Source of the DNA: Corticimicrobacter populi
GTDB lineage: Bacteria; Pseudomonadota; Gammaproteobacteria; Burkholderiales; Burkholderiaceae_B
Assembly (NCBI RefSeq): GCF_003123725.1
Contig: NZ_QETA01000006.1
Coordinates: 124,001 to 188,000, forward strand
Length of the DNA stretch: 64,000 bases
Direction of reading: 5' to 3'
Shown here one piece after another: positions 33,290-64,000 of this stretch. The notes beneath the pieces were generated by a model that saw nothing but the letters and a program-made list of their open reading frames with translations, did no database searches and was not told the origin of the DNA. Both the position numbers and the translations under genes were made by a program. How positions within the stretch are numbered: position 1 is the stretch's first letter; each line of letters begins with the position of its first letter.

Positions 33290-35127
33290 GCGGTGTATTC
33301 CGGCAGGGTGATGAGGAAACAGGCACCCGGCTGGCCGGGGGTGGAGGGTTCGAGTACCAGTGTGCCGCCCAGTGCCTGGATGATGTCGCGCGAGATGAGC
33401 AACCCAAGTCCCAGGCCATCGCTGCGGCTGGAGGTGAAGGGCGTGAAGAGCTTGCGACCGATGTCTGCATCCAGGCCCGGGCCGTTGTCGCGGATGCGGA
33501 TCCGGACCTGACCATCGGCCTGGCTCGCCGCTATGGTGATGCATCCACCCGTGGCCGGGCCGAGTGCATCGAGGGCATTGCGCAGCAGGTTGATAAAGAC
33601 CTGCTCCAGCCTGACCTGCGCGGCGCGGACCTGCAGCGGTGCCAGGGTATCGTCGATGTCGACGGTCACGCCCTGGCGGCGGGCGCGTGGCTCAAGCAGC
33701 AGCATGGCATTGTCGAGCGCGGCACGGATCGAGACCGGGCCGGGTTCGTCCCCGGCTTTGCGGGCGTAATGTCGCAATTGGCCGGTAATCAGGCCGATGC
33801 GATGGGTCAGGTCGGTGATGATGGTCAGGTTGCGGGCGGCCGCCTCGGTATCCGTCCGCTCCAGATAGACTCGGGCATTGTCGGCATAGGTCTGGATGGC
33901 GGCGACGGGCTGGTTGATTTCGTGGGCCACGCCGGCCGAAATCTGGCCCAGGAAGGCCAGTTTGTCGGCCTGCTCCAGTTGTTCGCGCAGATCGCGGGCC
34001 CGCGCCCGCGATTGTTCCAGAGCCTGCATTTTTTCTTCCAGGCGCTGGTTGGCGGCATGCCATTGCCGGGTGCGAGCTTCGACGGCCTGTTCCAGCTCCG
34101 TCTGTGAGGCAGCCTGCAGCGCCTCGCGCTCCAGTCTCTGGTGCCGGCGTACCAGCCAGAGAGCAGCCAGTGCCAGCAGGCTGGCGGTGGCCAGCAGGGC
34201 GGTCAGGCGCGAGGTCTGTGCGCTGGCAGCCAGCATGGCGCGGGTCGGCGACAGCACATGCAGGGTCCAGGTGCTGTCGGGGATGGCCTGGCTGATCTGG
34301 CGATAGCTTTCCCGGGTACCGCTGCGCAGGACCGGCAGATTGGCCTGCATACCCGGCACCAGTGGCAGGGGTGTCAGGCTGGCCGTGCCGAACTGCAGGT
34401 CGGCATGCAGGCTATCTGCCAGGGCGGGCGGCAGGGTGCCCAATGTACGGAAATGCCAGTCGGGGTCGCTGCTCAGGATGATGACGCCATGCTCGTCGGT
34501 GACGAAAAGAATGTCACCGGCGTGCTGCCAGGCCTGTTCCAGCCAGCCGAAATCGAGCTTGATGGCGATGACGCCATTCTCGCGTGTTGGATCGGTATCG
34601 ACCCGACGCGAAAAATACAGGCCGGGTCGGCCGCTGGAGGTACCCAGCGCAAAATATTCGCTTTGCCCTTCTCGCAGCGCATTGGCGAAGTAGGGGCGAA
34701 ACATATAATTCTTGCCCACGAAACTGTCGCGGTCCTGCCAGTTGCTGGATGCCAGGGTGTCGCCCTGGTGGTCTATCAGGTAGATCACGCTGGCACCCGT
34801 ACCCTGGGCCAGGCGCTCCAGCTTGAGGTTGAGCGCAGCCAGCGCTGCGGGGTTGCGTTGCGTGAGCGCCTGCTGCAGGGCCGTATCCTGCGCCAGGATA
34901 AAGGGCAGGGCATCGAACTTGTTGCGGATATTGTCGATCAGGCGGGCATTGGCCGAGGCCAGGCTGTCCAGCCGTACGGATTGTGCCTGGTAGGCCTGGT
35001 TGTCGCCCAGACGTCCCGAGAACATGGCGGCCAGTACCAGCAGGACAAGGCCAATGGCACCGAACAGCCACCAGTCATGCCGTATGCGCTGGTCGAGAGG
35101 CCGGGGCCGTGCCGGAATATCTGGCAT
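33286..35127 (-). CDS. dctB: C4-dicarboxylate sensor histidine kinase
   Basis: 613 residues from the ATG at 35127. Two transmembrane helices (about residues 20-40 and 320-340) bracket a periplasmic double-PAS sensing domain (around [26 protein letters not shown] and [19 protein letters not shown], characteristic of DctB). A coiled coil leads to the dimerisation domain with the phospho-His in [20 protein letters not shown] and the ATPase domain ([30 protein letters not shown]). It senses succinate, malate or fumarate together with DctA. Divergent from dctA, coupled to dctD. Confidence 0.94.
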
Positions 35128-35130
35128 GTC

Positions 35131-35148
35131 TGTGTGAAAATCCGCGTG
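35131..35148. promoter_or_regulatory. Second, imperfect DctD-type site overlapping the dctB leader
   Basis: The 18-mer tgtgtgaaaatccgcgtg matches the inverted orientation of the upstream palindrome at 14 of 18 positions. It begins 4 bases before the dctB start codon, so it overlaps the dctB ribosome binding region. Confidence 0.45.
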
Positions 35149-35161
35149 ATGTACTGAGTGG

Positions 35162-35181
35162 TTGTGCGGATTTTCGCACAA
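35162..35181. promoter_or_regulatory. Perfect DctD-type upstream activator palindrome
   Basis: Arms ttgtgcg and cgcacaa flank gattttt-like centre gatttt. The TGTGCG/CGCACA half-sites are those described for DctD upstream activating sequences in rhizobia. It lies about 95 bp upstream of the sigma-54 promoter, a normal enhancer distance. Confidence 0.7.
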
Positions 35182-35275
35182 TCCTGGTCGCCTGGTCGCT
35201 ATGCCCGCTTGTGGTGCCGTCCGCGAAGGCGCGCTGCGCCGTCTCGGTGCATTTGATCCGGTGTGGTGCATGAGT

Positions 35276-35291
35276 TGGCATGAAATTTGCT
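35276..35291 (+). promoter_or_regulatory. Sigma-54 (-24/-12) promoter of dctA
   Basis: tggcatgaaatttgct matches the TGGCAY-R-N4-TTGCW consensus, with exactly 12 bp from the GG to the GC element. The dctA start codon follows 61 bases downstream. Confidence 0.85.
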
Positions 35292-35352
35292 TTTGCCCCT
35301 CCAACTGTCCGAAACATACGGACCCGTTTCAAGGTATCAGGAGACATAAAAG

Positions 35353-50049: not shown

Positions 50050-50724
50050 ATGGCCGGCCAGCATGACCCGCGTGAGGCGATGAGTCAGCGCAATCGACGA
50101 GGCAGGGCGCGTGCCGATAGGTGTATCTGGTGGCTGGCGTTCCTGCTGGGGCTGCTGCCTTTGTTGCGCTGGCTCTGGCTGGGCGCGACCGGGGCGCTGG
50201 GCTTCAATCCGACGGAGTTTCTGCTGCGTTCGTCAGGCACCTGGACGCTGGTCTGTCTGCTGGTGACCCTGGCACTGACGCCGGCCCGTCACCTGCTGGG
50301 TTGGCAGGGGGCACCGCGCTGGCGAGGCATGGCAGGCCTGTTCACTTTTTTCTATGCCGTGCTGCATGCGCTGGCCTGGTCGTTTTTCGATCATGCCCTG
50401 GTGCTGCGTGACATGGGCGCGGATATCCTGCAACGACCGTTCATCGCCGTGGGCGTGGCGGTATTCGTGATCCTGCTGGCCCTGGCGGCGACATCGAGCA
50501 AGGCGGCCATGCGCATGCTGGGTAGGCAGTGGCAGCGCCTGCATCGGCTGGTGTACCTGGCCGGCGGGCTGGCGATTCTGCATTTCTGGTGGCACAAGGC
50601 GGGCAAGAACGACTGGCTGGAGCCGTTGCTGTATGGCGGTGTGCTGGTGCTGCTGCTGGCTGTGCGGGTGGTCGTGAAATTGCGGATGCGTTGGCGTGCA
50701 ACGCATCGGTCCTCACTGCCATAA
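50050..50724 (+). CDS. msrQ: Heme-binding membrane subunit of methionine sulfoxide reductase
   Basis: 224 residues, six transmembrane helices of the ferric-reductase-like YedZ family. Landmarks are WALGxTGALGFNPxE-like GATGALGFNPTEFLLRSSGTWTL, TPARHLLGW, the heme-ligand histidines in AVLHALAW and WQRLHRLVYLAGGLAILHFWWHKAGK. It is an inner-membrane b-heme protein passing quinol or flavin electrons to MsrP. It is followed by the convergent end of nasR, 47 bp away, where only a weak inverted repeat (acggg/cccgt near 50740-50753) is visible. Confidence 0.94.
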   Translation: MAGQHDPREAMSQRNRRGRARADRCIWWLAFLLGLLPLLRWLWLGATGALGFNPTEFLLRSSGTWTLVCLLVTLALTPARHLLGWQGAPRWRGMAGLFTFFYAVLHALAWSFFDHALVLRDMGADILQRPFIAVGVAVFVILLALAATSSKAAMRMLGRQWQRLHRLVYLAGGLAILHFWWHKAGKNDWLEPLLYGGVLVLLLAVRVVVKLRMRWRATHRSSLP

Positions 50725-50771
50725 CCAGCTGACAGGTACGGGGAGAGTACCCGTCATGGAGGTGTGCCGGC

Positions 50772-52043
50772 TCAGCCCTGTGTGGCGTTGCGTGTTGCCA
50801 GCAGTGCGTGGGCGACTTCGGTCAAGGTGCGGCCGCTGCGCATGGCTTCATGTTGCAGTTGTGCGTGCGCGTCGGCTTCGCTGATCCGGTGCAGCTCGAC
50901 CAGTATCCATTTGGCTTTTTCGATATGTCGGCGTTCGTCCAGGGCGGTACGGGCCTGATCCAGAGCCTGGTCGGATGCCTGGATGCGTTCGGCCTGGGCC
51001 TGCAGCAGATCCAGAATGGAGCGTTCCATGCCGCTGGCGATGCCGTCAGCCGGAGCCACGTCCAGCGGACGACTCTGGACATCGAACAGCATGGTGGGCC
51101 GGGTGCTGCCCTCGTGGGCCGCCATGCTGTCGAGCAGAGCGCGGTGGTTGCGCAGGTCCAGGCTGACGGCTTCGATGCGCTGGCGGCAGCGCTGGGCCAG
51201 CGTGGTCGTCAACTGGCATTCGATGGGGTGCATGCCGTCGATGCGCGCGGTACACAGATCAAACCACAGGGCCGCCATGCCGGTATCGACCGGCTGCTCT
51301 GCCGAGGTGCGGGCGGCCATGCCACGCAGGGACAAAACGGGTTCGTGCAGGTCGTCCAGACTCTGCCAGGCCTGCAGGCTCTGTCTGTCGGCCAATGCTT
51401 CGAACTGCATGAAGCAGCGCGTCTGCCTTTCGGCCAGCATGACCATGTGGACTTTCTGGGTAGGATTGAAGCGGCCCGCGGTATAACCGAGCACGCCGTA
51501 GGCTCGTTCCTGGCCACACAGTTCCTTGCCCTGCATGAAGTTCAGCAGTGCGGCCAGCAGGCGAGTGATGTCGGCATCGTGCGCGGCATCGGTCGTTTCT
51601 ACCGCAACGGCCAGCAGACTGGAAATCAGGCGGGTGAAGGCCGCGCTGGCGTCGCCTGGCTGCAGGCGGTGCGCGAGGATATTGCAGCGCAGGATGGGCA
51701 GTCCATCCAGACGGTAGAGCGCATGGGCGATACTGTCGAACAGCCGGGCCCGGCCATGGTCACTGCCGATGGGGTGGGTCAGCAGGGCATCCAGAAAGGT
51801 GCGGACATCGGCCTCATGGGTGGATACCGACTGGTGCTGTGCATCCAGAATGTGTTGCCGCTCAGGCGTCGGATGGCACAGGAACAGATTGGTGTAGCCC
51901 CGTTCTTTTTGCAGCTCATGAACCAGGTGGCTGATCAGGGTGACCAGCTCGCACGTATGCGCCAGCGATTCGAGACTGTGCAGTTCCGCCTGGCGGGCGG
52001 CGATCAGGAAGCGCAGTGTCGGGGGCAGGGTCTGTCGGGTCAT
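50772..52043 (-). CDS. nasR: Nitrate/nitrite-responsive antiterminator NasR (NIT-ANTAR)
   Basis: 423 residues. The long all-helical N-terminal part (about 35-340: ISHLVHELQKERGYTNLFL, then PLLAVAVETTDAAHDADI, KELCGQERAYGVLGYTAGRF, QTRCFMQFEALAD) is a NIT nitrate/nitrite-sensing domain; ERG at about 48-50 fits the family pattern. The C-terminal 60 residues (ALDERRHIEKAKWILVELHRISEADAHAQLQHEAMRSGRTLTEVAHALLA) form an ANTAR RNA-binding domain. In Klebsiella, NasR binds the nas leader RNA when nitrate or nitrite is present and prevents termination. Here it is the last gene of the nas operon, 25 bp after cobA, upstream of which no separate promoter is evident. Confidence 0.93.
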   Translation of the reverse strand: MTRQTLPPTLRFLIAARQAELHSLESLAHTCELVTLISHLVHELQKERGYTNLFLCHPTPERQHILDAQHQSVSTHEADVRTFLDALLTHPIGSDHGRARLFDSIAHALYRLDGLPILRCNILAHRLQPGDASAAFTRLISSLLAVAVETTDAAHDADITRLLAALLNFMQGKELCGQERAYGVLGYTAGRFNPTQKVHMVMLAERQTRCFMQFEALADRQSLQAWQSLDDLHEPVLSLRGMAARTSAEQPVDTGMAALWFDLCTARIDGMHPIECQLTTTLAQRCRQRIEAVSLDLRNHRALLDSMAAHEGSTRPTMLFDVQSRPLDVAPADGIASGMERSILDLLQAQAERIQASDQALDQARTALDERRHIEKAKWILVELHRISEADAHAQLQHEAMRSGRTLTEVAHALLATRNATQG

Positions 52044-52068
52044 GGTGTGCGTGGTGTTTGCGGGGGAC

Positions 52069-52869
52069 TCAGGCCTCCTGGCTGCATGGAATCATACAGG
52101 AGCGGTATTCGGAACACGAGGTGGCCTGTGTCCCGGCCTGGGCGGCGACGCTGCCGATGATCAGGATGGCCGGGCTGCGCAGGCCGGCTGCCTGCCCGTC
52201 TGCGGGCATCTCGTGCAGCGTACTGTCGATCTGGCGCTGGTAGGGCAGGCTGGCATTCTCGATCATGCAGACCGGGGTATGTCCGGGCAGGCCACCCTCC
52301 TGCAATTGCCGGGAGATGTCGTCCAGCCGGGTCACGCCCATGTAGACCACCAGTGTGGTGCCGCTGCGTGCCAGCGCTTCCCAGGGAGGCGGGCTGTCAT
52401 CGTCCGTGTGGGCCGTGACCAGGCTGACGCCGCGTGCGATGCCGCGCAGTGTCAGTGGGATGTTGCATGCGGTGGCTGCCGCCAGGCCTGCCGTAATGCC
52501 ATTGACGATGCCGCAGGCAATGCCGTGGCGGGCCAGCCATTCGATTTCTTCGCCGCTGCGTCCGAAAATTCCGGGGTCGCCGCCCTTGAGGCGAATGACC
52601 GTGAGCCCTTGGCGCGCGTAGCGCAGCATCAGGCGCTGGATGAATGACTGGGGCGTGGAGCGGCAGCCCCCGCGCTTGCCGACACGGATGATCTGGGCTT
52701 GCGGGCAATAGTGCAGGACCCCTTCCCCGACCAGATCGTCGACCAGCACAATGTCGGCCTGGGCCAGGATGCGTACGGCCTTCAGTGTCAGCAGTTCCGG
52801 GTCGCCCGGCCCGGCCCCGACCAGCCAGACAGAGGGGTGCATGCCTGGGTGCGAGAGCGTGTTGTGCAT
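52069..52869 (-). CDS. cobA: Uroporphyrinogen-III C-methyltransferase
   Basis: 266 residues. Tetrapyrrole methylase pattern: VWLVGAGPGDPELLTLKAVRILAQADIVLVDDLV, GKRGGCRSTPQ (SAM-site loop), VIRLKGGDPGIFGRSGEEIEWL, and TLRGIARGVSLVTAH. It methylates uroporphyrinogen III twice to make precorrin-2, the precursor of siroheme. Siroheme is the active-site cofactor of the nitrite reductase encoded in the same operon, so this copy is probably dedicated to NirB. Only the methyltransferase is present, not the CysG oxidase/chelatase domain. One-base overlap with nasA (TGATG). Confidence 0.94.
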   Translation of the reverse strand: MHNTLSHPGMHPSVWLVGAGPGDPELLTLKAVRILAQADIVLVDDLVGEGVLHYCPQAQIIRVGKRGGCRSTPQSFIQRLMLRYARQGLTVIRLKGGDPGIFGRSGEEIEWLARHGIACGIVNGITAGLAAATACNIPLTLRGIARGVSLVTAHTDDDSPPPWEALARSGTTLVVYMGVTRLDDISRQLQEGGLPGHTPVCMIENASLPYQRQIDSTLHEMPADGQAAGLRSPAILIIGSVAAQAGTQATSCSEYRSCMIPCSQEA

Positions 52870-55800
52870 CAGTACACATCCTTGAGATAGCGGCGCTGTT
52901 GCGCCAGACTGTCGATATAGAGATCGGCCGCTTCCGGTGTCAGGCCACCGTGTGTGCGGGCGATCTGGCGCAGCGTGGCATCGACGTCGCGGGCCATGCG
53001 GGCGGCGTCGCCGCAGATATAGAGATGCCCGTTTTCCTGTAGCCAGCGCCAGAGCAGAGCCCCCTGTTCAAGCATGCGATGCTGGACATATATCTGCGTT
53101 TCCTGATCGCGCGAAAACGCGGTATCCAGCCGGTTCAGGTGGCCGCTGGCCAGCCAGGCATCCAATTCCTGCCGATAGTAGAAATCGGTGGCCTGATACT
53201 GTTCCCCAAAGAAAAGCCAGTTCGGGCCGTGTGCGCCATCGGCTTCCCGATCCTGCAGGAATGCTCGAAAGGGGGCGATACCCGTGCCTGGGCCAATCAT
53301 GATCATGGGCGCGTCAGGATCGACGGGTGGTTTGAATAGAGGGGATTTCTGCACGAAGATGGGCACAGTGCCGTGCTCGGCACGGTCGGCCAGAAATGTC
53401 GAGCAGACACCGCCGCGCGGTTGCCCATCCAGGAGATAGCGGACCGTGCCCACGGTCAGGTGTACCGACTGCGGCACGACCTTCTGGCTGGATGAAATCG
53501 AATACAGCCTGGGTTGCAGGCGCTTGAGCAGCGACAGCAGTTCCGGTGCGGACAGACGGATCGGGCAGGCTGCCAGCAGGTCCGTCAGTTGCCTGCCCCA
53601 GAGCCAGGCTTGCAATTGTGCCTTGTGGGCAGGCTGCAATAGCCCGGTCAGCAGTTCGCTTTGGCTGCGTTCATGAATGGCATGCAGCAGCTCCTTGGTG
53701 ATGCGGGTGATGTCCAGATGGTGCAGCAAGGCATCACCCAGTGGCATCGTGATGCCGTTGAGTTCCACCGATGTGTCGGGGGCCAGCGCCAGTGCAGATA
53801 GCAAGGAGGAAACCTGCATCGGGTCATTGCGTGGCCAGACGCCCAGGGCATCGCCTGCTTCGTAGCGCAGGCCACTGTCGGCCAGGCCAAAGCCGAACTG
53901 GCGGGTGTCTTTCCCGGAGCCGGGCAGGTTGAGGCGCTGGTTCAGCTCCAAGTGGGCCGGCAAGGGGTTTTTGCGGCTGAACGCAGCGGTTGATTCTGCG
54001 GTTGAGGCACTGCCGACAGCGGCCGGGGTGGCGCTACCGGCAGGCACCGGTGCGGGGTTGGCCGTAACAGCGCTGATGGCGGCAACTGTGGTGGGTTCCG
54101 GTGCTTGGAGAGTTTCGGCGGTGAGCGCCTGGGCAATGTGCTGGCACCATGCCGTGGCCTGATCATGGGTGTCGGGTTCGCAGGGCAGGCACGGCGTCAG
54201 TTGGCGTGCCCCCAGTGCAGCCAGGCGTTGATCGAGTTGGCGGCCGAACCCGCAGAACTGATCATAGCTGGAGTCGCCAAGCGCCAGCACGGCATAGGTG
54301 CTTTTCTCCAGGCGGGGCATGTCGTTCGCGCACAGCGCCTGCCAGAATGCTGCGGCATGATCTGGTGGCTCGCCATCCCCGAAGGTGCTGACGCAGGCCA
54401 GTATGTGTGGGGCGCGAGCCAGGTCGGTGGCCTGGATGGCATCCATGCTGCTGAGTGTGACATCCAGGCCGCATTCGCGCAGGTGCTGCGCGCATTGCCG
54501 GGCCAGCGTTTCCGCATTGCCGGTCTGTGACGCCCACAACAGGGTGATGACCTGGGCTGTATTGGCGGGTGCGGAAGGTGGTGCAATAACTGCCTGGCCT
54601 GCCGGTGCGACGCTGTGATTCAGCAGGCCTGCCAGCAGACCATCCAGAAACAGCCGATGGGCGGGCTTGAGCGGGGCTGATAGCGGCAGGACGGGCGCAA
54701 CGCCCGCAGTGGACAGGGATTGGGTGCCCAATGCCGTCAGATAGCCCTGGACATAATGCTGTTCGTCGGGCTCCAGGGTGATGGTCGGCGGGTTGTCCAA
54801 TCCCAGCAGGCTGGCCACGATATCGAGTGCAGGGTGTATGTTGGTGCACATGTTTTGCAGGGGGGCGGCAGGCCTTGTTGCCGTGTCGCTGGTATCTGTG
54901 CTGCACTCAGGTGCCTGCGCTGTCTCTGATGCAATGGGCGTTAGCGAGATGGCGCAGTATTTGAGTTCCGGTTGCAGCGAGATCGGATCGACCGCATCGC
55001 TGGTGAGGGCATTGATGGCCATATTTTCTCCAAACACATCGCTCCAGTGAAACGGCGCAAAGCAGCTGCCTGGCTGAACCCGGTTTGAAATGCTGGCGGG
55101 CAGGCGGGCCTTGCCCCGGCGCGAACGGATTTCGACCTGCATTTGGTCGGTCAGGCCAAGGGCGGCAGCATCCTCGGGATGAATTTCGATGAACGGGGCC
55201 GGATTCAGGCGGTTGAGCGCCGGCACCTTGCCGGTCTTGGTCATGGTGTGCCACTGATGCTGGAGTCGTCCGGTATTGAGGATCAGCGGGAATTCTGTAT
55301 CCGGCAGTTCGGCTGCCGGCAGGCAGGGGCGGGCGAAAAAAACGGCCCGGCCATTGGCGGTGGCAAATTTCAGGCGCGGGCCTTGTGCCGGCCCCGGGTG
55401 CAGGTAGCGGATCGGATGCCGGTCCTGCGGATCGTCGGGTGGGCAGGGCCATTGCAGGGGGGTCTCGCGCAGGCGGGCATGGCTGGCACCGCGCAGGTCA
55501 TAGCCGGTGGCGGGGTTCCAGGTCTGGCGGATTTCGTCGAACACATCGCTGGCACACGCGTAGTCGAAGGCGTCGGCGTAGCCCATTTCACAGGCGATGC
55601 GGGCGATGATGCGCCAGTCGGCCATGGCCTGTCCGGGTGGTGGGACGGCCTGGCGCGCCAGGGTCAGGTTGCGCTCCGAGTTGATCATCACGCCGTCGCT
55701 CTCGGCCCACAGCGCACCTGGCAGCAGGACATCGGCATAGGCATTGGTTTCCGTGTCCAGAAAGGCGTCCTGCGCGATGACCAGTTCCGCCGCGCCCAGT

Positions 55801-57050
55801 CCGTCGATGACGGTCTGGCGGTTGGGGGCGCTGGCGACGGGGTTAGTGCAGATAATCCAGCAGGCCTTGATCTGACCGTCGCGCATTTGCTCGAACATGG
55901 CGACGGTGCCATCACCCGGATCGCTGCGCAGGGTGCCGGGGGCAAGTTGCCACAGATTTTCGATGAAAGTTCGGTCATCGGCCTGCAGGGCCGAGCGCTG
56001 ACCCGGCAGGCCAGGCCCCATGTAGCCCATCTCGCGCCCGCCCATGGCATTGGGCTGGCCGGTCAGCGAGAATGGGCCGCTGCCGGGTCGGCAGATCTTG
56101 CCGGTGGCCAGGTGCAGGTTGCACAGGGCATTGGTATGCCAGGTGCCGTGGGTACTCTGGTTCAGCCCCATGGTCCAGCAGCTCATCCATTCGCCGGCTT
56201 CGGCGATCCATTGCGCGGCGGTCCTGATATCGGCTTCGGGCAGGCCGGTCATGGCGGCAGCCTGCGCCGGTGCATAGTCTGCCAGGAAGGCGGGCATGGT
56301 CTCCCAGCCATCGGTATGTTGGGCGATGAACGCCGGATCGATATGTCCCTCTGCCACCAGCAGGTACAACAGGCCGTTGAGCAAAGCCAGATCGCTGCCA
56401 GGGCGGATCGGCAGATACAGGTGTGCCTTGTCGGCGGTGGCCGTGCGTCGTGGATCGACTACGATCAGTCGGGCTCCCGCCTTGATGCGATCCATCATGC
56501 GCAGGTACAGGATGGGATGGCAGTCCGCCATGTTGGCCCCGATCACGAAAAACAGGTCGGCATGATCGAAATCCTGGTATGAGCCGGGCGGTGCATCCGC
56601 ACCCAGTGACTGCTTGTAGCCGCTGCCGGCACTGGCCATGCACAATCGCGAGTTGCTCTCGATGTGGCGGGTACGGATATAGCCTTTGGCGAGTTTGTTG
56701 GCCAGGTACTGGGCTTCCAGCGACATCTGGCCGGACACGTACAGGGAAATGGCATCCGGCCCGTGGGTGTCCAGGATATGGCGCAGCCGTCGGGCCGTAT
56801 CGCGCAAGGCCGCATCGATATCCATCCGCATGGGCTCCTGGTGGCGCTGTGTGCGCACCCAGGCGTCGGCAAGCCGGCCAGGCGTATCGAGTGGCAGGTG
56901 ACAGCTTTGCCCCTTGGTGCATAACCGCCCCGCGTTGCTGGGATGATTGCGGTCACCGGATACCTTGATGACGCGCTGGCCGTCGACATGCAGCACGATG
57001 CCGCAGCCCACGCCGCAATAGGGGCATACGGATTTGACGGTCTCGGCCAT
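52869..57050 (-). CDS. nasA: Assimilatory nitrate reductase fused to CysJ-like flavoprotein reductase
   Basis: 1393 residues from the ATG at 57050. Residues 1 to about 720 are a NasA molybdopterin nitrate reductase: [4Fe-4S] cysteines 9, 12, 16 and 44 (CPYCGVGCG, RLCTKGQ), then GxGxNMADCHP-like substrate entry, LNQSTHGTWHTNALCNLHLATGKICRPG and GRLQHQWHTMTKTGKVP. A Pro/Ala-rich CysJ-like N-terminal stretch and linker (about 720-830) lead to a flavodoxin domain (LLWASQTGNAETLARQ, about 833-975), another linker, and an FAD/NADP reductase (YSISSS, GPGTGIAPFRAFLQDRE, YICGDAARMARDVD, to the end). A single chain can thus take NADPH electrons to nitrate. No separate NasC gene is present. Weak ribosome binding site; probably coupled to nrtC. 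Confidence 0.94.
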   Translation of the reverse strand: MAETVKSVCPYCGVGCGIVLHVDGQRVIKVSGDRNHPSNAGRLCTKGQSCHLPLDTPGRLADAWVRTQRHQEPMRMDIDAALRDTARRLRHILDTHGPDAISLYVSGQMSLEAQYLANKLAKGYIRTRHIESNSRLCMASAGSGYKQSLGADAPPGSYQDFDHADLFFVIGANMADCHPILYLRMMDRIKAGARLIVVDPRRTATADKAHLYLPIRPGSDLALLNGLLYLLVAEGHIDPAFIAQHTDGWETMPAFLADYAPAQAAAMTGLPEADIRTAAQWIAEAGEWMSCWTMGLNQSTHGTWHTNALCNLHLATGKICRPGSGPFSLTGQPNAMGGREMGYMGPGLPGQRSALQADDRTFIENLWQLAPGTLRSDPGDGTVAMFEQMRDGQIKACWIICTNPVASAPNRQTVIDGLGAAELVIAQDAFLDTETNAYADVLLPGALWAESDGVMINSERNLTLARQAVPPPGQAMADWRIIARIACEMGYADAFDYACASDVFDEIRQTWNPATGYDLRGASHARLRETPLQWPCPPDDPQDRHPIRYLHPGPAQGPRLKFATANGRAVFFARPCLPAAELPDTEFPLILNTGRLQHQWHTMTKTGKVPALNRLNPAPFIEIHPEDAAALGLTDQMQVEIRSRRGKARLPASISNRVQPGSCFAPFHWSDVFGENMAINALTSDAVDPISLQPELKYCAISLTPIASETAQAPECSTDTSDTATRPAAPLQNMCTNIHPALDIVASLLGLDNPPTITLEPDEQHYVQGYLTALGTQSLSTAGVAPVLPLSAPLKPAHRLFLDGLLAGLLNHSVAPAGQAVIAPPSAPANTAQVITLLWASQTGNAETLARQCAQHLRECGLDVTLSSMDAIQATDLARAPHILACVSTFGDGEPPDHAAAFWQALCANDMPRLEKSTYAVLALGDSSYDQFCGFGRQLDQRLAALGARQLTPCLPCEPDTHDQATAWCQHIAQALTAETLQAPEPTTVAAISAVTANPAPVPAGSATPAAVGSASTAESTAAFSRKNPLPAHLELNQRLNLPGSGKDTRQFGFGLADSGLRYEAGDALGVWPRNDPMQVSSLLSALALAPDTSVELNGITMPLGDALLHHLDITRITKELLHAIHERSQSELLTGLLQPAHKAQLQAWLWGRQLTDLLAACPIRLSAPELLSLLKRLQPRLYSISSSQKVVPQSVHLTVGTVRYLLDGQPRGGVCSTFLADRAEHGTVPIFVQKSPLFKPPVDPDAPMIMIGPGTGIAPFRAFLQDREADGAHGPNWLFFGEQYQATDFYYRQELDAWLASGHLNRLDTAFSRDQETQIYVQHRMLEQGALLWRWLQENGHLYICGDAARMARDVDATLRQIARTHGGLTPEAADLYIDSLAQQRRYLKDVY

Positions 57051-57090
57051 GGTGAGGGTTCCGGCGGATATGGGCAGGTGTCCGGGCCGC

Positions 57091-57906
57091 TCAGGCGGCC
57101 TTTTCCACATGCCCCTGGCGGGTATAGAGGAAATCGATCACTGCCTTCCGGTATTGCTGGTAGTGATTGTCTTCGGCCAGTTCGATGCGGTTGCGGGGCC
57201 GTGGCAACTCGACCGACAGCACTTCGCCAATGGTGGCGGCCGGTCCGTTTGTCAGCATGACAATCTTGTCCGACAGCAGCACGGCTTCGTCCACGTCATG
57301 CGTCACCATGATCACGGTGGAGTGGGTCTGGGCCACGATGGCCAGCAGTTCGTCCTGCAACTTGGCACGGGTCAGTGCATCCAGCGCCCCGAAGGGTTCG
57401 TCCATCAGCAGGACCTTGGGCTCCATGGAAAGCGCACGCGCAATGCCGACGCGCTGCTTCATGCCGCCCGAGATTTCCCCTGGCCGCTTGTGGGCCGCAT
57501 GGGACAGTCCAACCAGTTCCAGGGCGGCAGCGGTGCGTGCCCGCAGTTGCTCTCGTGTTTCCAGCTTGCCGAACACGCGTTCGACGGCCAGCATGATGTT
57601 GCCTTCGCAGGTCATCCAGGGCAGCAGGGAATGGTTCTGGAACACCATGGCCCGATCCGGCCCAGGGCCGGCGATTTCCTTGTTGGCGGCAATCAGCGTT
57701 CCGGCAGATGGCACGGTCAGACCGGCCACCAGGTTCAGCAAGGTCGACTTGCCGCAGCCTGAATGGCCGATCAGCGCCACGAACTCTCCCTTGGCGATAT
57801 TCAGGTTGATATCGCGCAGTGCCGGAAAAATGCCCTTGGCCGTTTTGAAGGATTGAGCCACGTTGAAAATTTCGATGTATTTGCTGTCACTCATCATGGG
57901 TTCCAT
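57091..57906 (-). CDS. nrtC: Nitrate/nitrite ABC transporter ATP-binding protein
   Basis: 271 residues from the ATG at 57906 (in-frame ATGs at 57897 and 57894 are alternatives). Walker A GHSGCGKSTLLNLVAGL, signature ISGGMKQRVGIARALS, Walker B VLLMDEPFGALDALTRAKLQ, switch His VMVTHDVDEAVLLSD. The nitrate/sulfonate/taurine family (NitT) is evident, and NKEIAGPGPDRAMVFQNHSLLPWMT matches NrtC/NasD. The C-terminal NrtA-like extension of cyanobacterial NrtC is absent, so it is the short NasD type. Confidence 0.92.
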   Translation of the reverse strand: MEPMMSDSKYIEIFNVAQSFKTAKGIFPALRDINLNIAKGEFVALIGHSGCGKSTLLNLVAGLTVPSAGTLIAANKEIAGPGPDRAMVFQNHSLLPWMTCEGNIMLAVERVFGKLETREQLRARTAAALELVGLSHAAHKRPGEISGGMKQRVGIARALSMEPKVLLMDEPFGALDALTRAKLQDELLAIVAQTHSTVIMVTHDVDEAVLLSDKIVMLTNGPAATIGEVLSVELPRPRNRIELAEDNHYQQYRKAVIDFLYTRQGHVEKAA

Positions 57907-57910
57907 ATCA

Positions 57911-57940
57911 GTGGCGTGATTCTTAGTGGCGTGATTCTTC
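57911..57940. repeat. 15-bp tandem duplication at the nrtB 3' end
   Basis: Two copies of gtggcgtgattctt plus one variable base (57911-57925 and 57926-57940). On the coding strand it repeats the last codons of nrtB with their stop codon, giving ESRH-stop-ESRH-stop. Confidence 0.85.
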
Positions 57941-58711
57941 GAAGGTCACGGCAGCCGCAAGGCGTACCAACAGGGTTTCCAGCAGCAGGCCGACGATGCC
58001 GATCACGAAAATGGCGATGATGATGTGGTTGACGTTCAGGTTGTTCCATTCATCCCAGAGCCAGAAGCCGATGCCGACGCCGCCGGTCAGCATTTCTGCC
58101 GCCACGATGACCAGCCAGGCCGTTCCCACGGCCAGCCGCACACCGGTCAGCATGTAGGGCAGGACGGCGGGCAGCAGGATGCGGGTCGCGATTTTCCACT
58201 CTGACAGGGCCAGTACCCTGGCCACATTCATGTAATCCTGCGGGACCCGCTGTACCCCTACGGCGGTGTTGATGACCATGGGCCAGATCGAGCAGATGAA
58301 AATGGTCCAGATGGCGGCAGGATTGGCGGACTTGAATACCAGCAGGCCGATGGGCAGCCATGCCAGCGGCGAGACGGGACGCAGCAGGCTGATGATCGGG
58401 TTGAGCATGCGCCCCAGGAAGGCGGAGCGGCCGATCATGAATCCCAGCGGAATGCCCACCAGTGCCGCCAGGCCGAAGCCCAGGCCGACGCGTTGCAGCG
58501 AGGCCAGCACATTCCAGCCTATCCCCTGGTCATTCGGCCCGGCCTGGTAGAACGGGTCGGAAAACAGCACGACAGCCGAGTCCCAGGTTTCCAGTGGTGG
58601 CGGGATGCCATCTCCCTGTTGGGACAGGATTTGCCAGAACAGCAGTACCAGCAGGAAGCCCAGCAGGGGGGGCAGAATGGCTTGCAACCAACGGTTCAGA
58701 ATATGTCTCAC
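57923..58711 (-). CDS. nrtB: Nitrate/nitrite ABC transporter permease
   Basis: 262 residues from a GTG at 58711 with GGGAG 7 bases upstream. Six transmembrane helices of the NitT/TauT permease family; the EAA-type loop is YMNVARVLALSEWKIATRILLPAVLPYMLTGVRLAVGTAWLVIVAAEMLTGGVGIGFWLWDEWNNLN, which contains the C-terminal WDEWNNLN signature typical of nitrate permeases. It forms the membrane channel of the NrtABC importer, supplying nitrate to NasA. It ends in a duplicated stop region (see the 15-bp repeat). Confidence 0.92.
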   Translation of the reverse strand: MRHILNRWLQAILPPLLGFLLVLLFWQILSQQGDGIPPPLETWDSAVVLFSDPFYQAGPNDQGIGWNVLASLQRVGLGFGLAALVGIPLGFMIGRSAFLGRMLNPIISLLRPVSPLAWLPIGLLVFKSANPAAIWTIFICSIWPMVINTAVGVQRVPQDYMNVARVLALSEWKIATRILLPAVLPYMLTGVRLAVGTAWLVIVAAEMLTGGVGIGFWLWDEWNNLNVNHIIIAIFVIGIVGLLLETLLVRLAAAVTFEESRH

Positions 58712-58731: not shown

Positions 58732-59976
58732 TCAGGCGTGGATGTCGAAAGAGTCGGCGTAGGTGGCCGGGTCCTGTCCATCCCAGGTTTTGCCACCCAG
58801 CAGCGTGCTGCTGCGCAAATCGCTGTCCGGCACGGCAACGCCTGCAGCGGCGGCGGCTTCGCGGTAGAGGTCAGTCTGGTTGAGACGCCGTGCCACGGCC
58901 AGATAGTCAGGGTGGTCGGCCAGCAGCCCCCAGCGCTTGTGCTGGGTCAGGAACCAGGCCGCATCGGAGGCATAGGGATAGTTGACCTGGCCGGCATCGT
59001 GGAACTTCATGTGATTGGGGTCATCCCAGGTCTTGCCCAGACCGTCCTGGTAATGGCCCTGGATGCGGTCGATAATGGCGGCCCGACTGGTGTTCACATA
59101 GGCCCGGGCGGCGATGGTGTCGGCCATTTGTTCACGGTTTTCCGGTGTGCTGTCGATCCAGCGACTGGCTTCAAGAATTGCGGCGATGACCGCCTTGCAG
59201 GTGTTGGGATGCTGTTCGGCAAAGGCCTGTGTCGTGCCAAGCACCTTTTCGGGATGGTCTGGCCAGATGTCCTGCGAGGACGCGGCATGGACCGATACGC
59301 CGTCCAGGATGCCGCGCATGTTCCAGGGTTCGCCGACCGAGAAACCGTCCATGTTGCCGACCCGAGCATTGGCAATCATCTGCGGGGGCGGCACGGTGAT
59401 GACCTTGATGTCCTGCATCGGATTGATGCCGGCCGTGGCCAGCCAGTAGTACAGCCACATGGCATGGGTGCCGGTCGGGAAGGTCTGGGCGAATGGGTAT
59501 TCGCGCGGTTCCCGCTTCATCAGGGCGGCCAGCGAGGCCAGGTCGGTGGCACCGGCCTCGGCCAGTTTCCTGGAGAGGGAAATGCCCTGTCCGTTGCGGT
59601 TGAGTGTCATCAGGTTGGCCATGTCGGCCTGCGGGCCGCCGATGCCGACTTGCAGGCCGACCAGCTCACCGTAGAGGATATGGCTGAAATCGTTCTCGCC
59701 ATTGAGCTGCTTGTCCCGGATCGTGGCCCAGTTCGCTTCTTTGCTGGGAATGATCTTGATGCCGTATTTTTCGTCCAGGCCCAGGGCCGAGGCCATGACA
59801 ATGCTGGCACAGTCTGTCAGCGGGATGAAACCGATCCGGACTTCCTTCTTTTCTGGCGTGCCCATGCCGCCGGCGGCAGCGCGCGCGGGGAGCAGGGCGG
59901 GCGCGCAGAGCAGGGCACCCATGGCGGTGGCGTTGCGCATGAAACTGCGGCGTGTCTTCAGGAGAGTATCGGTCAT
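58732..59976 (-). CDS. nrtA: Nitrate/nitrite ABC transporter substrate-binding protein
   Basis: 414 residues. A twin-arginine signal (TRRSFMRNATAMGALLCAPALLPARAAAGG) directs it to the periplasm. The core matches NrtA: RIGFIPLTDCASIVMASALGLDEKYGI, ENDFSHILYGELVGLQVGIGG, PQMIANARVGNMDGFSVGEPWN, and QVNYPYASDAAWFLTQHKRWGLL. It captures nitrate (and probably nitrite) for the importer. It has an AAGGGA ribosome binding site and lies 73 bp after nirD, part of the single nas operon. Confidence 0.94.
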   Translation of the reverse strand: MTDTLLKTRRSFMRNATAMGALLCAPALLPARAAAGGMGTPEKKEVRIGFIPLTDCASIVMASALGLDEKYGIKIIPSKEANWATIRDKQLNGENDFSHILYGELVGLQVGIGGPQADMANLMTLNRNGQGISLSRKLAEAGATDLASLAALMKREPREYPFAQTFPTGTHAMWLYYWLATAGINPMQDIKVITVPPPQMIANARVGNMDGFSVGEPWNMRGILDGVSVHAASSQDIWPDHPEKVLGTTQAFAEQHPNTCKAVIAAILEASRWIDSTPENREQMADTIAARAYVNTSRAAIIDRIQGHYQDGLGKTWDDPNHMKFHDAGQVNYPYASDAAWFLTQHKRWGLLADHPDYLAVARRLNQTDLYREAAAAAGVAVPDSDLRSSTLLGGKTWDGQDPATYADSFDIHA

Positions 59977-60049: not shown

Positions 60050-60400
60050 TCAGCCTATTTCCACCCAGTCGCCATTGAGCCGGGCGGGCCAGGTGCGCAG
60101 GCGTTGCTCCGGGTATTGCAGGCATTGCCCGTCACGCAGCCGGAATTGCTGCTTGTAGAGAGGGGATGAAATGACAGGCTCATCCTGCACGCAACCTACC
60201 AGCCCGCGCCCGATGACATTGGCCCCGGAGCGGGGGTCGCGGTTGTCGATGGCAAACACGGTGTCGCCTTGTTCGCTGTCCGGCACCAGCACCAGGGCAA
60301 TCTGGTGCTCTCCGACCAGAGCCACCACACCCGAGCGGGCGACCAGATCCTGGCGGCGGCAGACCGGCTGCCAGTGGGGGGAGGACGTGGTGGTTTTCAT
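60050..60400 (-). CDS. nirD: Nitrite reductase small subunit
   Basis: 116 residues. A Rieske-like fold without the cluster cysteines and histidines: WQPVCRRQDLVARSGVVALVGEHQIALVLVP, VFAIDNRDPRSGANVIGRGLVGCVQDEPVISSPLYKQQFRLRDGQCLQYPEQRLRTWPARL, the standard NirD pattern. It associates with NirB to form the NAD(P)H-dependent nitrite reductase. Its start overlaps the nirB stop by 4 bases (ATGA). Confidence 0.94.
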   Translation of the reverse strand: MKTTTSSPHWQPVCRRQDLVARSGVVALVGEHQIALVLVPDSEQGDTVFAIDNRDPRSGANVIGRGLVGCVQDEPVISSPLYKQQFRLRDGQCLQYPEQRLRTWPARLNGDWVEIG

Positions 60401-62952
60401 GATGCAATCTCCTCGGTAATCTGGATGACGCGGGCGGGGCGAGGTTGACCGCGTTCCTGTTCAAAACGGATGTCGGGATCGCTGCGCGAATCGTTGACGA
60501 AGGTGCGAAAACGCTTGAGCTTTTCAGGGTCGGACAGGGCATTGGCCCATTCGCACTCATAGCGGTCCACGATGAGCTGCATCTGCGCTTCGAGTTGTCC
60601 GGCCAGGCCCAGGCTGTCGTCGATGACAACGGCTTTCAGGTAGTCCAGGCCGCCCTCCAGGGACTCCCTCCAGACTGCCGTGCGCTGCAGCTTGTCGGCG
60701 GTGCTGATGTAGAACATCAGCAGGCGGTCGATGTAGCGGATCAGGGTGGCGTCATCGAGATCTGTCGCAAACAGTTCGGCATGGCGCGGGCGCATGCCGC
60801 CGTTGCCGCAGACGTACAGGTTCCAGCCCTGTTCGGTCGCGATCACGCCGATGTCTTTGCTCTGCGCCTCGGCACATTCGCGGGTGCAGCCCGAGACGGC
60901 AAACTTCAATTTGTGCGGGGCACGCAGTCCTTTGTAGCGGTGTTCGATATGCAGGGCCATGGCGACACTGTCCTGCACACCGTAACGGCACCAGGTGCTG
61001 CCCACACAGGATTTCACGGTACGGGTGGATTTGCCGTAGGCATGGCCGGTCTCGAAGCCGGCCTCGATCAGCTCGGCCCAGATTTCCGGCAGTTCGTGCA
61101 ACTGGGCACCGAACAGGTCGATCCGCTGGCCGCCCGTGATCTTGGTGTAGAGCTGGTACTTGCGGGCGATCTGGCCGATGGCAATCAGACCATCGGGGGT
61201 GATTTCTCCACCTGGAATGCGCGGCACCACCGAATAGGTGCCGTTTTTCTGCATGTTGGCCATGAAGGTATCGTTGGTGTCCTGCAAGGGCACCAGGGCC
61301 GGGTTCTGGATGGGGCGGTTCCAGCACGAGGCCAGAACGGAGCCGACGATGGGCTTGCAGATGTCGCAACCGAGCGCGTTACCCCGGCCATGCCTGGCGT
61401 GCACCTGCTCGAAGGTTTCCAGCCCTTCCACGCGGACACAGGCATACAGTTCCTGGCGGGTCAGTGCAAAGTGCTCGCACAGGCTTTTGTCGACCGCCAC
61501 ACCGCGCGCAGTCAGCTCATGATCGAATACCTGCTTGAGGAGTGCTGCACATCCGCCGCAACCGGTGGCTGCCTTGGTGCAGGTCTTGATTTCACCCAGA
61601 TCGGTGCAGCCTGCGTCGATGGCATTGCAGATGGCACCCTTGGTGACGTTGTGGCAGGAACAGATCGTGGCCGTGGCCGGCAGGGCATCCACACCCAGCG
61701 TAGGCGTGGCAGAGCCCTGGGGCAGGATCAGCGCGGCAGGATCGGCCGGTGGTGCAATGCCGTTGCTGACATACTGGGAGAGCGTGTCGTAATAGCTGTT
61801 GTCGCCTACCAGTACGGCACCCAGCACGCGCTTGCCGTCTTCGGAGATCACCAGGCGGCGGTAGCTGGCAGTGATTTCGTCGATATAGCGATAACTGCGG
61901 GCCCCCGGCGTGGCGGCATGGGCATCGCCGATGGAGCCTACGTCCACCCCCAGCAATTTGAGCTTGGTGGACATGTCCGCGCCTGCAAAGGGCGATGCCT
62001 CCAGATCGCAGAGCCGGGCCGCCACACAGCGCGCCATCTGGTAGCCGGGAGCGACCAGGCCGAAGACGGCATCGTTCCAGGCCGCGCATTCTCCTATTGC
62101 AGAAATGGCGGGATCGCTGGTTTGGCACAGGCTGTCGATGGCAATGCCGCCCCGCTTGCCCAGTGTCAGGCCGGCGGCTCGGGCCAGCTCGTCGCGGGGC
62201 CGGATGCCTGCGGAAAAAACGATGAGATCGGTGTCCAGCACATTGCCGTCGGCAAAATGCATGCCGTATCTGTGTGTACTGCCGGGATGTATGGCTTGTG
62301 TGGCGCGATCCAGATGTACCTGCACACCCAGGGCCTCGATTCGTGCTTTCAGAGCTGCACCGCCCTGTGGATCGAGCTGTACGGGCATCAGGCGCGGTGC
62401 AAATTCGACGATGTGGGCTTCCAGTCCCAGCAGTCGCAGGGCATTGGCCGCTTCAAGCCCAAGCAGGCCGCCGCCGACAACGACGCCGCGTCGGGCATGG
62501 CGGGCGGCCATGCGGATCGTGTCCAGATCGTCCAGGGTGCGGTAGACCAGGCGGGCGTTGCCCGCAGCACCGTCGATCTGTGGCACGAACGGATACGACC
62601 CGGTTGCCAGGATCAGGTGGTCGTAATGATGGCGACCCAGGCTGGTCAGGATTTCCTGTCTGGCGCGATCGATCTCCAGCACGCTGGTATCCAGATGCAG
62701 CGTCAGGCCAGGCGTGGAGTACAGGGCACCATCGCCCAGCGCCATTGATTCGGCATCGCGGCCACTCAGGTACTCGGACAGATGAACCCGGTCATAGGCC
62801 CGGCTGCGTTCTTCACCGAAGATATGAATGTCGTAGCGTGCGGTTGCGCCATGGGCGACCAATTGCTCCGCACAGTGATGGCTGACCATGCCGTGGCCGA
62901 TGATGATGAGCGTGGGCCGATCCTGGCGAGGGGTAGAAGACGCGATGTTCAT
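60397..62952 (-). CDS. nirB: Assimilatory NAD(P)H nitrite reductase large subunit
   Basis: 851 residues from the ATG at 62952 (AAGGA ribosome binding site 8 bases upstream). Order: FAD and NAD binding domains (LIIIGHGMVSHHCAEQL, about 1-400), a [2Fe-2S] BFD-type domain (CSCHNVTKGAICNAI near residue 430 and CTKAATGCGGCAALLKQ), a sulfite/nitrite reductase half-domain, then the [4Fe-4S]/siroheme ligands (CVGSTWCRYG about 650, SGCTRECAEAQSKDIG about 690). It reduces nitrite to ammonium with six electrons. It is the first gene of the nas operon, preceded by a 114-nt leader with an attenuator and by a sigma-54 promoter. Confidence 0.95.
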   Translation of the reverse strand: MNIASSTPRQDRPTLIIIGHGMVSHHCAEQLVAHGATARYDIHIFGEERSRAYDRVHLSEYLSGRDAESMALGDGALYSTPGLTLHLDTSVLEIDRARQEILTSLGRHHYDHLILATGSYPFVPQIDGAAGNARLVYRTLDDLDTIRMAARHARRGVVVGGGLLGLEAANALRLLGLEAHIVEFAPRLMPVQLDPQGGAALKARIEALGVQVHLDRATQAIHPGSTHRYGMHFADGNVLDTDLIVFSAGIRPRDELARAAGLTLGKRGGIAIDSLCQTSDPAISAIGECAAWNDAVFGLVAPGYQMARCVAARLCDLEASPFAGADMSTKLKLLGVDVGSIGDAHAATPGARSYRYIDEITASYRRLVISEDGKRVLGAVLVGDNSYYDTLSQYVSNGIAPPADPAALILPQGSATPTLGVDALPATATICSCHNVTKGAICNAIDAGCTDLGEIKTCTKAATGCGGCAALLKQVFDHELTARGVAVDKSLCEHFALTRQELYACVRVEGLETFEQVHARHGRGNALGCDICKPIVGSVLASCWNRPIQNPALVPLQDTNDTFMANMQKNGTYSVVPRIPGGEITPDGLIAIGQIARKYQLYTKITGGQRIDLFGAQLHELPEIWAELIEAGFETGHAYGKSTRTVKSCVGSTWCRYGVQDSVAMALHIEHRYKGLRAPHKLKFAVSGCTRECAEAQSKDIGVIATEQGWNLYVCGNGGMRPRHAELFATDLDDATLIRYIDRLLMFYISTADKLQRTAVWRESLEGGLDYLKAVVIDDSLGLAGQLEAQMQLIVDRYECEWANALSDPEKLKRFRTFVNDSRSDPDIRFEQERGQPRPARVIQITEEIAS

Positions 62953-62979
62953 GTGTAATTCCTTGCAAACAATGCCGCC

Positions 62980-63026
62980 GCCAAGACAAAAGGCGCTCCT
63001 GACCTGGGAGGGTCGGGGGCGCCTTT
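62980..63026 (-). terminator. Attenuator terminator in the nirB leader
   Basis: On the minus strand AAAGGCGC (63026-63019) pairs with GCGCCTTT (62996-62989), with an inner GACC/GGTC stem, followed by the T-rich tail TTTTGTCTT. It stands between the sigma-54 promoter and the nirB start codon, so it must be bypassed for expression. NasR is the obvious antiterminator. Confidence 0.8.
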
Positions 63027-63077
63027 GCCGGTACTGCACAGGTTGTCTGGGCGAGAAAACTTCTCTACCGGTTATCA

Positions 63078-63093
63078 AGCAATATCTGTGCCA
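63078..63093 (-). promoter_or_regulatory. Sigma-54 promoter of the nas operon
   Basis: On the minus strand TGGCACAGATATTGCT matches the -24 (TGGCAC) and -12 (TTGCT) elements with the required 12 bp from GG to GC. Transcription would start near 63066, giving a leader of about 114 nt before nirB. Confidence 0.85.
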
Positions 63094-63189
63094 GACCGGA
63101 TGCGGGCTGGGGAAAACCCGGTGCTGTACCGTGCGAAAGCCCGTGAACCGGGAGGGCATGGCCGGCTGTGATTGCCTGAGTGGTGTGGG

Positions 63190-63215
63190 CCTGCGCGCCG
63201 GACTTGGTGCGCAGG
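63190..63215. repeat. Inverted repeat between the NtrC-like site and the nas promoter
   Basis: cctgcgc (63190-63196) and gcgcagg (63209-63215) with a 12-bp spacer. It may be a second regulator site; it fits no consensus I can name. Confidence 0.35.
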
Positions 63216-63225
63216 TGCCTGGATA

Positions 63226-63242
63226 TGCACTGTTGCGGCGCA
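63226..63242. promoter_or_regulatory. NtrC-like enhancer site of the nas operon
   Basis: TGCAC-TGTTGCG-GCGCA matches the NtrC consensus TGCAC-N7-GTGCA at 9 of 10 half-site positions. It lies about 140 bp upstream of the sigma-54 promoter, a usual enhancer distance. Confidence 0.6.
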
Positions 63243-63340
63243 CCCGGCACCATCCGGGTTCATCGGGCCCGCGCGGGCAGGAAAAGGGAGAAACATGAAG
63301 AATGGATGAGGGTTGGATTAAGACTTCCTTGCCTGGCCGG

Positions 63341-63366
63341 GTCTGTTTGCGTTAACGCAAACAGAC
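63341..63366. promoter_or_regulatory. Perfect 26-bp palindrome upstream of the ChuW/HutW-like gene
   Basis: The half gtctgtttgcgtt is followed directly by its exact complement, 13-bp arms with no spacer, about 80 bp before the start codon at 63445. There is no T tract and no gene upstream on this strand, so it is more likely an operator than a terminator. The centre TTGCG-TTAA-CGCAA has the 5-4-5 layout of the Crp/Fnr family but not a known half-site. Confidence 0.6.
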
Positions 63367-63444
63367 TGAAATTGCGTCTGATTACGCTTTCTTGATCTGT
63401 TGAACCCATGCATGCAGGCGTGTGCCTGCAGGCGATCGAGAGTG

Positions 63445-64000
63445 ATGAGTCGGATGGACGAGAAGCTTGCAGTCTATTTCGCCAGAACAGGCGATGATCC
63501 TTTGCGTACGGCATTTGCCATGCGACGGGCCGTGATGCCCTGGCGTCGCCAGCAGGCCGTCCCTGCCGAAGGCATGGCCGCCGCCTGGGCCCAGGTGCTG
63601 GACGCGGTACCCGGCAGCCATCGCATTGCCTATATCCATGTGCCGTTCTGTGCCAATCATTGCCTGTTCTGCGGTTTCTATCGCAATGCCTGCTCGCAGG
63701 ATGCGATGGCCCACTACACCGAATGTCTGGTCGCGGAAATCAGCCGTGAGGCTGCGCGTCTGCCAGCAGGCTCGGCACCGGTCGAGGCGCTGTATCTGGG
63801 CGGTGGCACGCCCAGTGCGCTGTCTGCACAGCAACTGGAGCGGATATTGAATACGGCACGGCAATGCCTGCCGCTGACGGATGATTGCGAGGTCACGCTG
63901 GAAGCACGGATTACCCATTTCGATGATGACAAAATTGATGCCTGCATTGCGGCAGGTGTGAACCGGATATCGATTGGCGTGCAGAGTTTCGATACCCAGG
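63445..64000 (+). CDS. hutW: Radical SAM heme-degradation enzyme, ChuW/HutW-like (partial)
   Basis: 185 residues are visible before the window ends; the frame is open to 64000. The ATG at 63445 (MSRMDEKLAVYF) is chosen; 63457 is possible. The radical SAM motif is HVPFCANHCLFCGFYRNAC (CxxxCxxC), followed by LYLGGGTPSALS (SAM binding) and LEARITHFDDDKIDACIAAG, NRISIGVQSFDTQ. The EARITHFDDDKIDAC stretch resembles ChuW/HutW, anaerobic heme-opening methyltransferases, more than HemN, although coproporphyrinogen III oxidase relatives cannot be fully excluded without the C-terminal half. Confidence 0.8.
   Translation, partial: MSRMDEKLAVYFARTGDDPLRTAFAMRRAVMPWRRQQAVPAEGMAAAWAQVLDAVPGSHRIAYIHVPFCANHCLFCGFYRNACSQDAMAHYTECLVAEISREAARLPAGSAPVEALYLGGGTPSALSAQQLERILNTARQCLPLTDDCEVTLEARITHFDDDKIDACIAAGVNRISIGVQSFDTQ

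Follow-up and report, generated by a model that had tools for sequence, protein, structure and literature searches.

Upstream of nirB, the window (the whole stretch of 64,000 nucleotides analysed here) very probably carries an attenuation leader that is driven by NtrC and sigma-54 and controlled by NasR. The original prediction had read this region as an AND gate, in which nitrogen limitation starts transcription and nitrate or nitrite finishes it. Comparative evidence supports such a gate, namely the NIT and ANTAR domains and the kept basic residues of the encoded regulator, the occurrence of rpoN and ntrC in the genome, and the conserved promoter, antiterminator hairpin (P2), terminator and palindrome. 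The leader is without the canonical first hairpin, P1, and the leader class defined by this lack looks new.

Gene row, regulator and leader RNA

The source genome (3.55 Mb in 17 contigs) is of the Alcaligenaceae type. In the window, the control region is followed on the minus strand by eight genes in the order nirB-nirD-nrtA-nrtB-nrtC-nasA-cobA-nasR (Table 1); the domains are from Pfam, and the names are those which we take the genes to bear. Since neighbouring genes from nirB to nasR either overlap by 1-20 bp or are separated by gaps of 16-73 bp, the arrangement suggests one transcription unit. NasA is encoded in one frame of 1413 aa that combines the nitrate reductase with flavodoxin, FAD and NAD-binding reductase domains, and this fused protein is matched over almost its full length in L038, L040 and L041.

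Table 1. Coordinates of the control elements and of the genes downstream of them.
Feature	Position	Strand	Remarks
NtrC-like palindrome TGCGCC-N5-AGTGCA	63226..63242	-	starts 149 bp upstream of the -24 element; 10/12 to the assumed consensus
Sigma-54 promoter TGGCACAGATATTGCT, -24/-12	63078..63093	-	exact consensus; conserved in alignment A2; rpoN in genome
5'-end hairpin GAGAA-GTT-TTCTC	63053..63065	-	from folding; in the place of P1, without ANTAR hexaloop
ACAAC element	63042..63046	-	between 5' hairpin and P2; ACAA recurrent in leaders of the NasR group
P2 antiterminator hairpin GGC[AAAGGC]GCC	63018..63029	-	ANTAR hexaloop with A1 and G4, C:G closing pair
Intrinsic terminator stem-loop	62989..63026	-	-21.9 kcal/mol; conserved in A2; 5' arm common to P2
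T-rich tail TTTTGTCTT	62991-62983	-	interrupted T-tail
nirB, assimilatory nitrite reductase large subunit	60397..62952	-	Pfam domains; name presumed
nirD, small subunit (Rieske_2)	60050..60400	-	Pfam; name presumed
nrtA-like nitrate ABC transporter binding protein	58732..59976	-	Pfam NMT1_2; name presumed
nrtB-like permease	57923..58711	-	Pfam; name presumed
nrtC-like ATPase	57091..57906	-	Pfam; name presumed
nasA, molybdopterin nitrate reductase fused to flavodoxin/FAD/NAD reductase	52869..57110	-	Pfam; name presumed
cobA-like uroporphyrinogen methyltransferase	52069..52869	-	Pfam TP_methylase; name presumed
nasR, NIT-ANTAR antiterminator	50772..52043	-	Pfam NIT and ANTAR; last in row, 25 bp after cobA

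As had been predicted, the operon encodes its own NIT-ANTAR antiterminator. The product of nasR, the last gene, unites a NIT domain (PF08376, E 2.5e-46) and an ANTAR domain (PF03861, E 5e-16) in a single protein and matches K. oxytoca NasR (4akk) with an E-value of 6.6e-33. The basic RNA-contacting residues are kept with one K to R change: R371, R372, K376 and K378 align to R340, K341, K345 and K347 of K. oxytoca NasR, whose residue numbering in the alignment has an inferred offset. Judged by its domains and residues, the nasR product is a NasR-type NIT-ANTAR antiterminator, for which binding of nitrate or nitrite is predicted.

Folding, a step proposed with the original prediction, gave energies for the 5' hairpin, P2 and the terminator. 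The small GAGAA/TTCTC hairpin anticipated at the 5' end of the transcript is present (-3.3 kcal/mol), and the predicted start lies two bases before it. The anticipated intrinsic terminator was recovered as well, is followed by TTTTGTCTT and is kept in relatives. A simple terminator scan did not list it (for 61000-64000 the scan gave 2 terminator-like sites, versus 1.9 in shuffles), and the case for the terminator therefore rests on conservation. The two-hexaloop target of ANTAR proteins had not been identified in the original prediction, and this stands in part: a P2 hexaloop has now been located, and a canonical P1 was not found, the window's leader containing no ANNGNN hairpin of at least 4 pairs. 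A reading of P1 as GGT[AGAGAA]GTT was rejected, since its three pairs are all wobble pairs and it lies at the predicted start.

The P2 loop with A1, G4 and a C:G closing pair has the features that K. oxytoca NasR picked out in SELEX (PMC7496416; statements on this and the other cited papers refer to the portions of their text that were available). The loop and the 3' side of P2 make up the 5' arm of the terminator, and the GGC before the loop lies outside the terminator. P2 alone folds at -2.8 kcal/mol, and forcing it in the leader costs about 7 kcal/mol. As P2 is weak and the terminator far stronger, the protein would have to hold P2 during transcription, that is, act co-transcriptionally. 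No Rfam family matched the window at gathering thresholds; to our knowledge, there is no ANTAR-target family in Rfam that should match the leader. A helix AGACAA/TTGTCT after the terminator, which appeared in one fold and, by eye, in some relatives, was absent in others and was discarded. The sequence GGCAAWGGCGCC has only one other exact copy in the genome, located in what looks, by eye, like part of a chemoreceptor gene, and no terminator was seen beside this copy.

Conservation of the leader and the place of P1

Promoter, P2 and terminator keep their order in 19/19 aligned leaders (the window and 18 distinct relatives; alignment A2), these having been picked with a scan scored on sigma-54, P2 and terminator. 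No variation is seen among the 19 in the loop core or in the GGC that precedes the loop, and as this GGC lies outside the terminator, P2 would be the simplest reason for its conservation. The scan requires C[ANNGNN]G with at least 3 pairs, and P2 is thus present by selection among the 92 leaders obtained; the requirement did not apply to the unselected stretches ahead of nirB or to the flanks. Of 10 such stretches from relatives, 9 contain a comparable hexaloop hairpin, seven as GGC[AAWGGC]GCC and two as the near-identical TGAGC[AAAGGC]GCTTG; L038 is the exception. The P2 stem of other lineages compensates, GGC/GCC being replaced by GGAC/GTCC or TGAC/GTCA. Accordingly, in 16 leaders (A3, hand-picked from the 92 rows and with inner pairs selected for pairing), four of five pairs change on both sides, and none of 500 shuffles reaches the covariation score; the outermost pair forms in five of the 16.

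The 92 leaders stem from 77 of 91 loci; once identical stretches had been taken out, they came down to 80. A relaxed scan, judged by eye, revealed three more in the 14 loci without a leader (L117 without P1, L135 and L147 with P1), which were not counted. From at least 596 listed stretches, at least 543 of them confirmed, the best 80 were used as named relatives, which therefore lean towards this NasR. As the window's leader type we define GGC[AAWGGC]GCC ahead of nirB in Alcaligenaceae-type genomes, which leaves out L039, L040 and L041. A leader model, R1, was used as a finder only, because its RNAalifold consensus pairs the leader with untranscribed promoter DNA. R1 matches 10 of 101 genomes strongly (E <=2e-10), and eight of these have a full-length NasR; since the leaders of the same eight genomes were used to build R1, they match by construction, and the co-occurrence was dropped as support. 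The only new genomes with strong matches, G042 and G046, have a short ANTAR match and no detected full-length NasR, and G019, G054 and G084 have a NasR-like match but none to R1. These exceptions weigh against the proposed mechanism, as does the interrupted T-tail.

Leaders of related build also occur at other positions. In G042, which is without a detected full-length NasR, the same leader type precedes a frame (L169) that resembles what we take to be a formate/nitrite transporter. In G008 and G044, another reading frame, away from the nirB leader, is preceded by a sigma-54 leader (L179, L180) whose P2 reads gggc[AACGGC]gtcc or gggc[AATGGC]gtcc and which lacks an ANNGNN P1; antitermination may have a second target in these two genomes.

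The lack of P1 extends well beyond the window. A strict P1, defined by a C:G closing pair, ANNGNN and at least 4 pairs and scored on the 80 distinct leaders, occurs in 1/59 leaders of the window's NasR group versus 15/21 in the rest, where shuffles give 0.6 and 0.5, respectively; the Fisher value of 1.2e-10 for this contrast ignores shared ancestry. The groups were taken from a quick tree of 85 NasR proteins with SH-aLRT support only, in which the window falls into a group of 62 rows (SH-aLRT 99); the rest is not one clade, and L032, L033, L035, L112, L116 and L142, which are outside the tree, were assigned as duplicates or near kin. Given that the leader has no canonical P1, P2 would have to act alone or with an unrecognised partner.

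The partner might be a non-canonical P1, with the 5' hairpin or ACAA serving as a real second NasR site outside the A1/G4 rule and the dual-site mechanism unchanged; we take this explanation seriously, at somewhat less than an even chance. Most leaders of the group (not L123 on the minus strand) indeed fold a 5' hairpin at the place of P1, though the stems are unrelated and the loops vary, and ACAA precedes the P2 loop by 15-22 nt in 37/59 group leaders and in 17/19 of the window's type (2/21 in the rest), versus a mean of 3.1/59 and a maximum of 8 in shuffles, the motif having been picked after viewing the sequences. Furthermore, if any closing pair is allowed, an ANNGNN hairpin of at least 4 pairs is found in seven group leaders (L036, L037, L099, L088, L089, L091 and L133); in the last four, which represent the Pseudomonas straminea branch, one of two leaders has the hairpin and the nrtA leaders are without it. 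Against a second site of this kind, no common loop sequence was seen among the 5' hairpins, the strict P1 is about as rare in the group as in shuffles, and under a 70 percent rule the groups differ at one ANTAR position, 404 (G versus N). The 5' hairpins of L075, L076, L079, L080, L083, L085 and L090 have GNRA-type tetraloops (GCAA; GCGA in L079).

Turning to the role of P2 itself, the minimal motif was narrowed to one hexaloop by the structure of EutV with RNA, for which successive binding was proposed, a recruitment hairpin being bound before the antitermination hairpin (PMC8934654). The leader class described here may thus be a natural switch without a recruitment hairpin, or it may hide an unrecognised one. 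Tentatively, it might be speculated that a NasR clade comprising Alcaligenaceae-type betaproteobacteria, Pseudomonas/Stutzerimonas and Halothiobacillus has largely given up P1 in favour of single-hexaloop antitermination, with recruitment by the 5' hairpin and ACAA, and that among its betaproteobacteria the antiterminator also turns on its own gene in a bistable nitrogen-gated loop, a proposal which we consider possible, if somewhat short of probable. The known proteins speak against a switch with one hexaloop: the P1 stem, A1 and G4 of the P1 loop and part of the linker are named as essential for K. oxytoca NasR in a commentary (PMC3369936), and deletion of P1 abolished induction by EutV (PMC3369931), as far as the accessible text of both papers goes. 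With canonical P1 no commoner than chance in these leaders, what P1 does becomes directly testable, and our results suggest that RNA searches for dual hexaloops will miss such leaders. Neither leaders without P1 nor a nas leader of Alcaligenaceae were found among the listed hits in the open-access literature searched.

Promoter, NtrC-like site and the reading protein

The canonical sigma-54 promoter of the original prediction was confirmed: TGGCACAGATATTGCT fits TGGCAYNNNNNTTGCW exactly and is conserved in relatives. Exact sites of this kind number 2 in the 64-kb window versus 0.25 expected, the other one being located at 35276-35291 ahead of a dctA-like gene. Counting the C of TTGC as -12 places the predicted +1 near 63067. 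The genome encodes one rpoN plus ntrC, both over the model cut-offs. The NtrC-type site likewise held up as a palindrome that agrees at 10/12 positions with TGCACC-N5-GGTGCA, which we take to be the NtrC consensus. No site scores higher in the 220 bp that lie upstream of the promoter, and 4/100 shuffles match its score. The best NtrC-like site in the same interval scores at least 10/12 in 17/19 leaders and 9 in two, the window being included in the count; in the 17, the sites are positioned at -57 to -161 and equalled by 0-5/100 shuffles, as compared to 24 and 14/100 in L034 and L082. A degenerate palindrome pattern gave 2 matches versus 0.18 expected, but was drawn to fit the site at 63242-63226, and this count is hence after the fact.

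The second exact sigma-54 site in the window is part of a similar arrangement (35235-35291, plus strand), in which an NtrC-like palindrome (35235-35251) lies 24 bp upstream, before a gene for a dctA-like dicarboxylate transporter. A sensor/regulator pair, by eye named DctB/DctD-like, is encoded on the opposite strand (33286-35304 and 31928-33544), and the DctD-like regulator matched the ntrC model below the cut-off. This suggests that the palindrome is not NtrC-specific; as the dctA-like gene has a similar one, the palindrome alone is no proof of NtrC, and binding of NtrC upstream of nirB is predicted at a site not exclusive to it. It could therefore be argued from the dctA-like site and the adjoining DctB/DctD-like pair that another enhancer-binding protein drives the nirB promoter. 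We consider this unlikely, as no other DNA-binding regulator is found among the eight gene products by Pfam domains, NtrC-like sites recur upstream of the promoter in nearly all aligned leaders, and the nas genes of P. stutzeri A1501 are NtrC-dependent according to the available part of PMC8443478, which lists the strain with nasS and nasT.

As another alternative, the leader might usually be read by an ANTAR protein other than NasR, namely NasT, with NasR being incidental. Such an assignment could draw on G046, where the leader precedes nirB, no nasR is found in the surrounding stretch and a NasT-size ANTAR match lies beside nrtA. The nrtA leader of this genome has a canonical P1, gacggcc[AACGGC]ggccgtc, plus P2; two leader types thus coexist in G046. 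Against NasT, the NasR query gave a single match in the window's genome, while the same query matched NasT-size proteins in other genomes. Moreover, each of the 22 loci that represent the window's type (19 distinct, window included) has its nasR on the strand of nirB and downstream of that gene, the intervening genes having been identified in part. NasT as the usual reader is thus quite improbable. That the signals arose by chance, the terminator being that of a constitutive attenuator, is scarcely credible: the single motifs are short and the simple scan lists no terminator here, but the order is kept in every aligned leader and P2 covaries, albeit in leaders picked by a scan for those elements and, for A3, by hand.

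Proposed switch and known systems

Under control by NtrC and NasR, nitrogen shortage would lead phosphorylated NtrC, bound near the palindrome, to activate sigma-54 RNA polymerase, and transcription would start at the predicted +1. Without nitrate or nitrite, the RNA would fold into the terminator and most transcripts would stop. With either ion present, NasR would grip the P2 hexaloop as it emerges and retain the terminator's 5' arm within P2, which would let the polymerase read through nirBD-nrtABC-nasA-cobA-nasR. For K. oxytoca, nitrate raised readthrough in vitro from 5 to 52 percent (PMC7496416, available portion). Until nitrate arrives, NasR would be made from rare readthrough. Positive feedback on nasR is predicted because nasR is the last gene and simple scans saw no promoter near it: no sigma-70-like site was found in 50300-53200 (0.4 expected), and no minus-strand sigma-54 site with at most 1 mismatch between nasR and 62252. 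The distal nasR thus predicts hysteresis in nitrate use. A different order, with nasR ahead of the leader, is seen in three more distant NasR loci from this family (L039, L040 and L041) as well as in many Pseudomonas/Stutzerimonas loci.

The gate logic is known from Klebsiella, where Ntr is combined with NasR (PMC5424462), as the original prediction held, yet it is not confined to that genus. According to the accessible part of a review citing work on P. putida and P. aeruginosa, the nirBD leader NalA of Pseudomonas is controlled by sigma-54, NtrC and NasT (PMC12830290), and for the betaproteobacterium Azoarcus olearius, NtrBC plus NasR are stated (PMC8467165). The combination of sigma-54, NtrC and attenuator is thus ordinary for this function, and it is the leaders lacking a canonical P1, as a class, and the distal position of nasR that merit a test. 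With regard to the latter, nasR of Klebsiella is a separate upstream gene, in contrast to its distal position in the gene row here.

Among the closest known systems, K. oxytoca nasF/NasR shares the NIT-ANTAR protein, a P2 hexaloop overlapping the terminator, the nitrate/nitrite signal and Ntr control (PMC7496416, PMC3369936, PMC5424462), but needs P1, which in its canonical form is missing from the window's leader. Similarly, NalA has nirBD, sigma-54, NtrC and ANTAR antitermination in common with the leader described here and differs in its two-protein sensor, NasS/NasT, in place of the one-component NasR. The Enterococcus eut leaders, read by EutV, also place an ANTAR hexaloop over the terminator; as stated in the available text, however, they require both P1 and P2 and a linker of critical length and depend on two-component input (PMC3369931). 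Finally, the amiECBRS operon of Pseudomonas aeruginosa (named in PMC3369936) resembles the present one in that the antiterminator gene, amiR, lies within the operon it controls, but there amides are sensed through AmiC and P1 is present.
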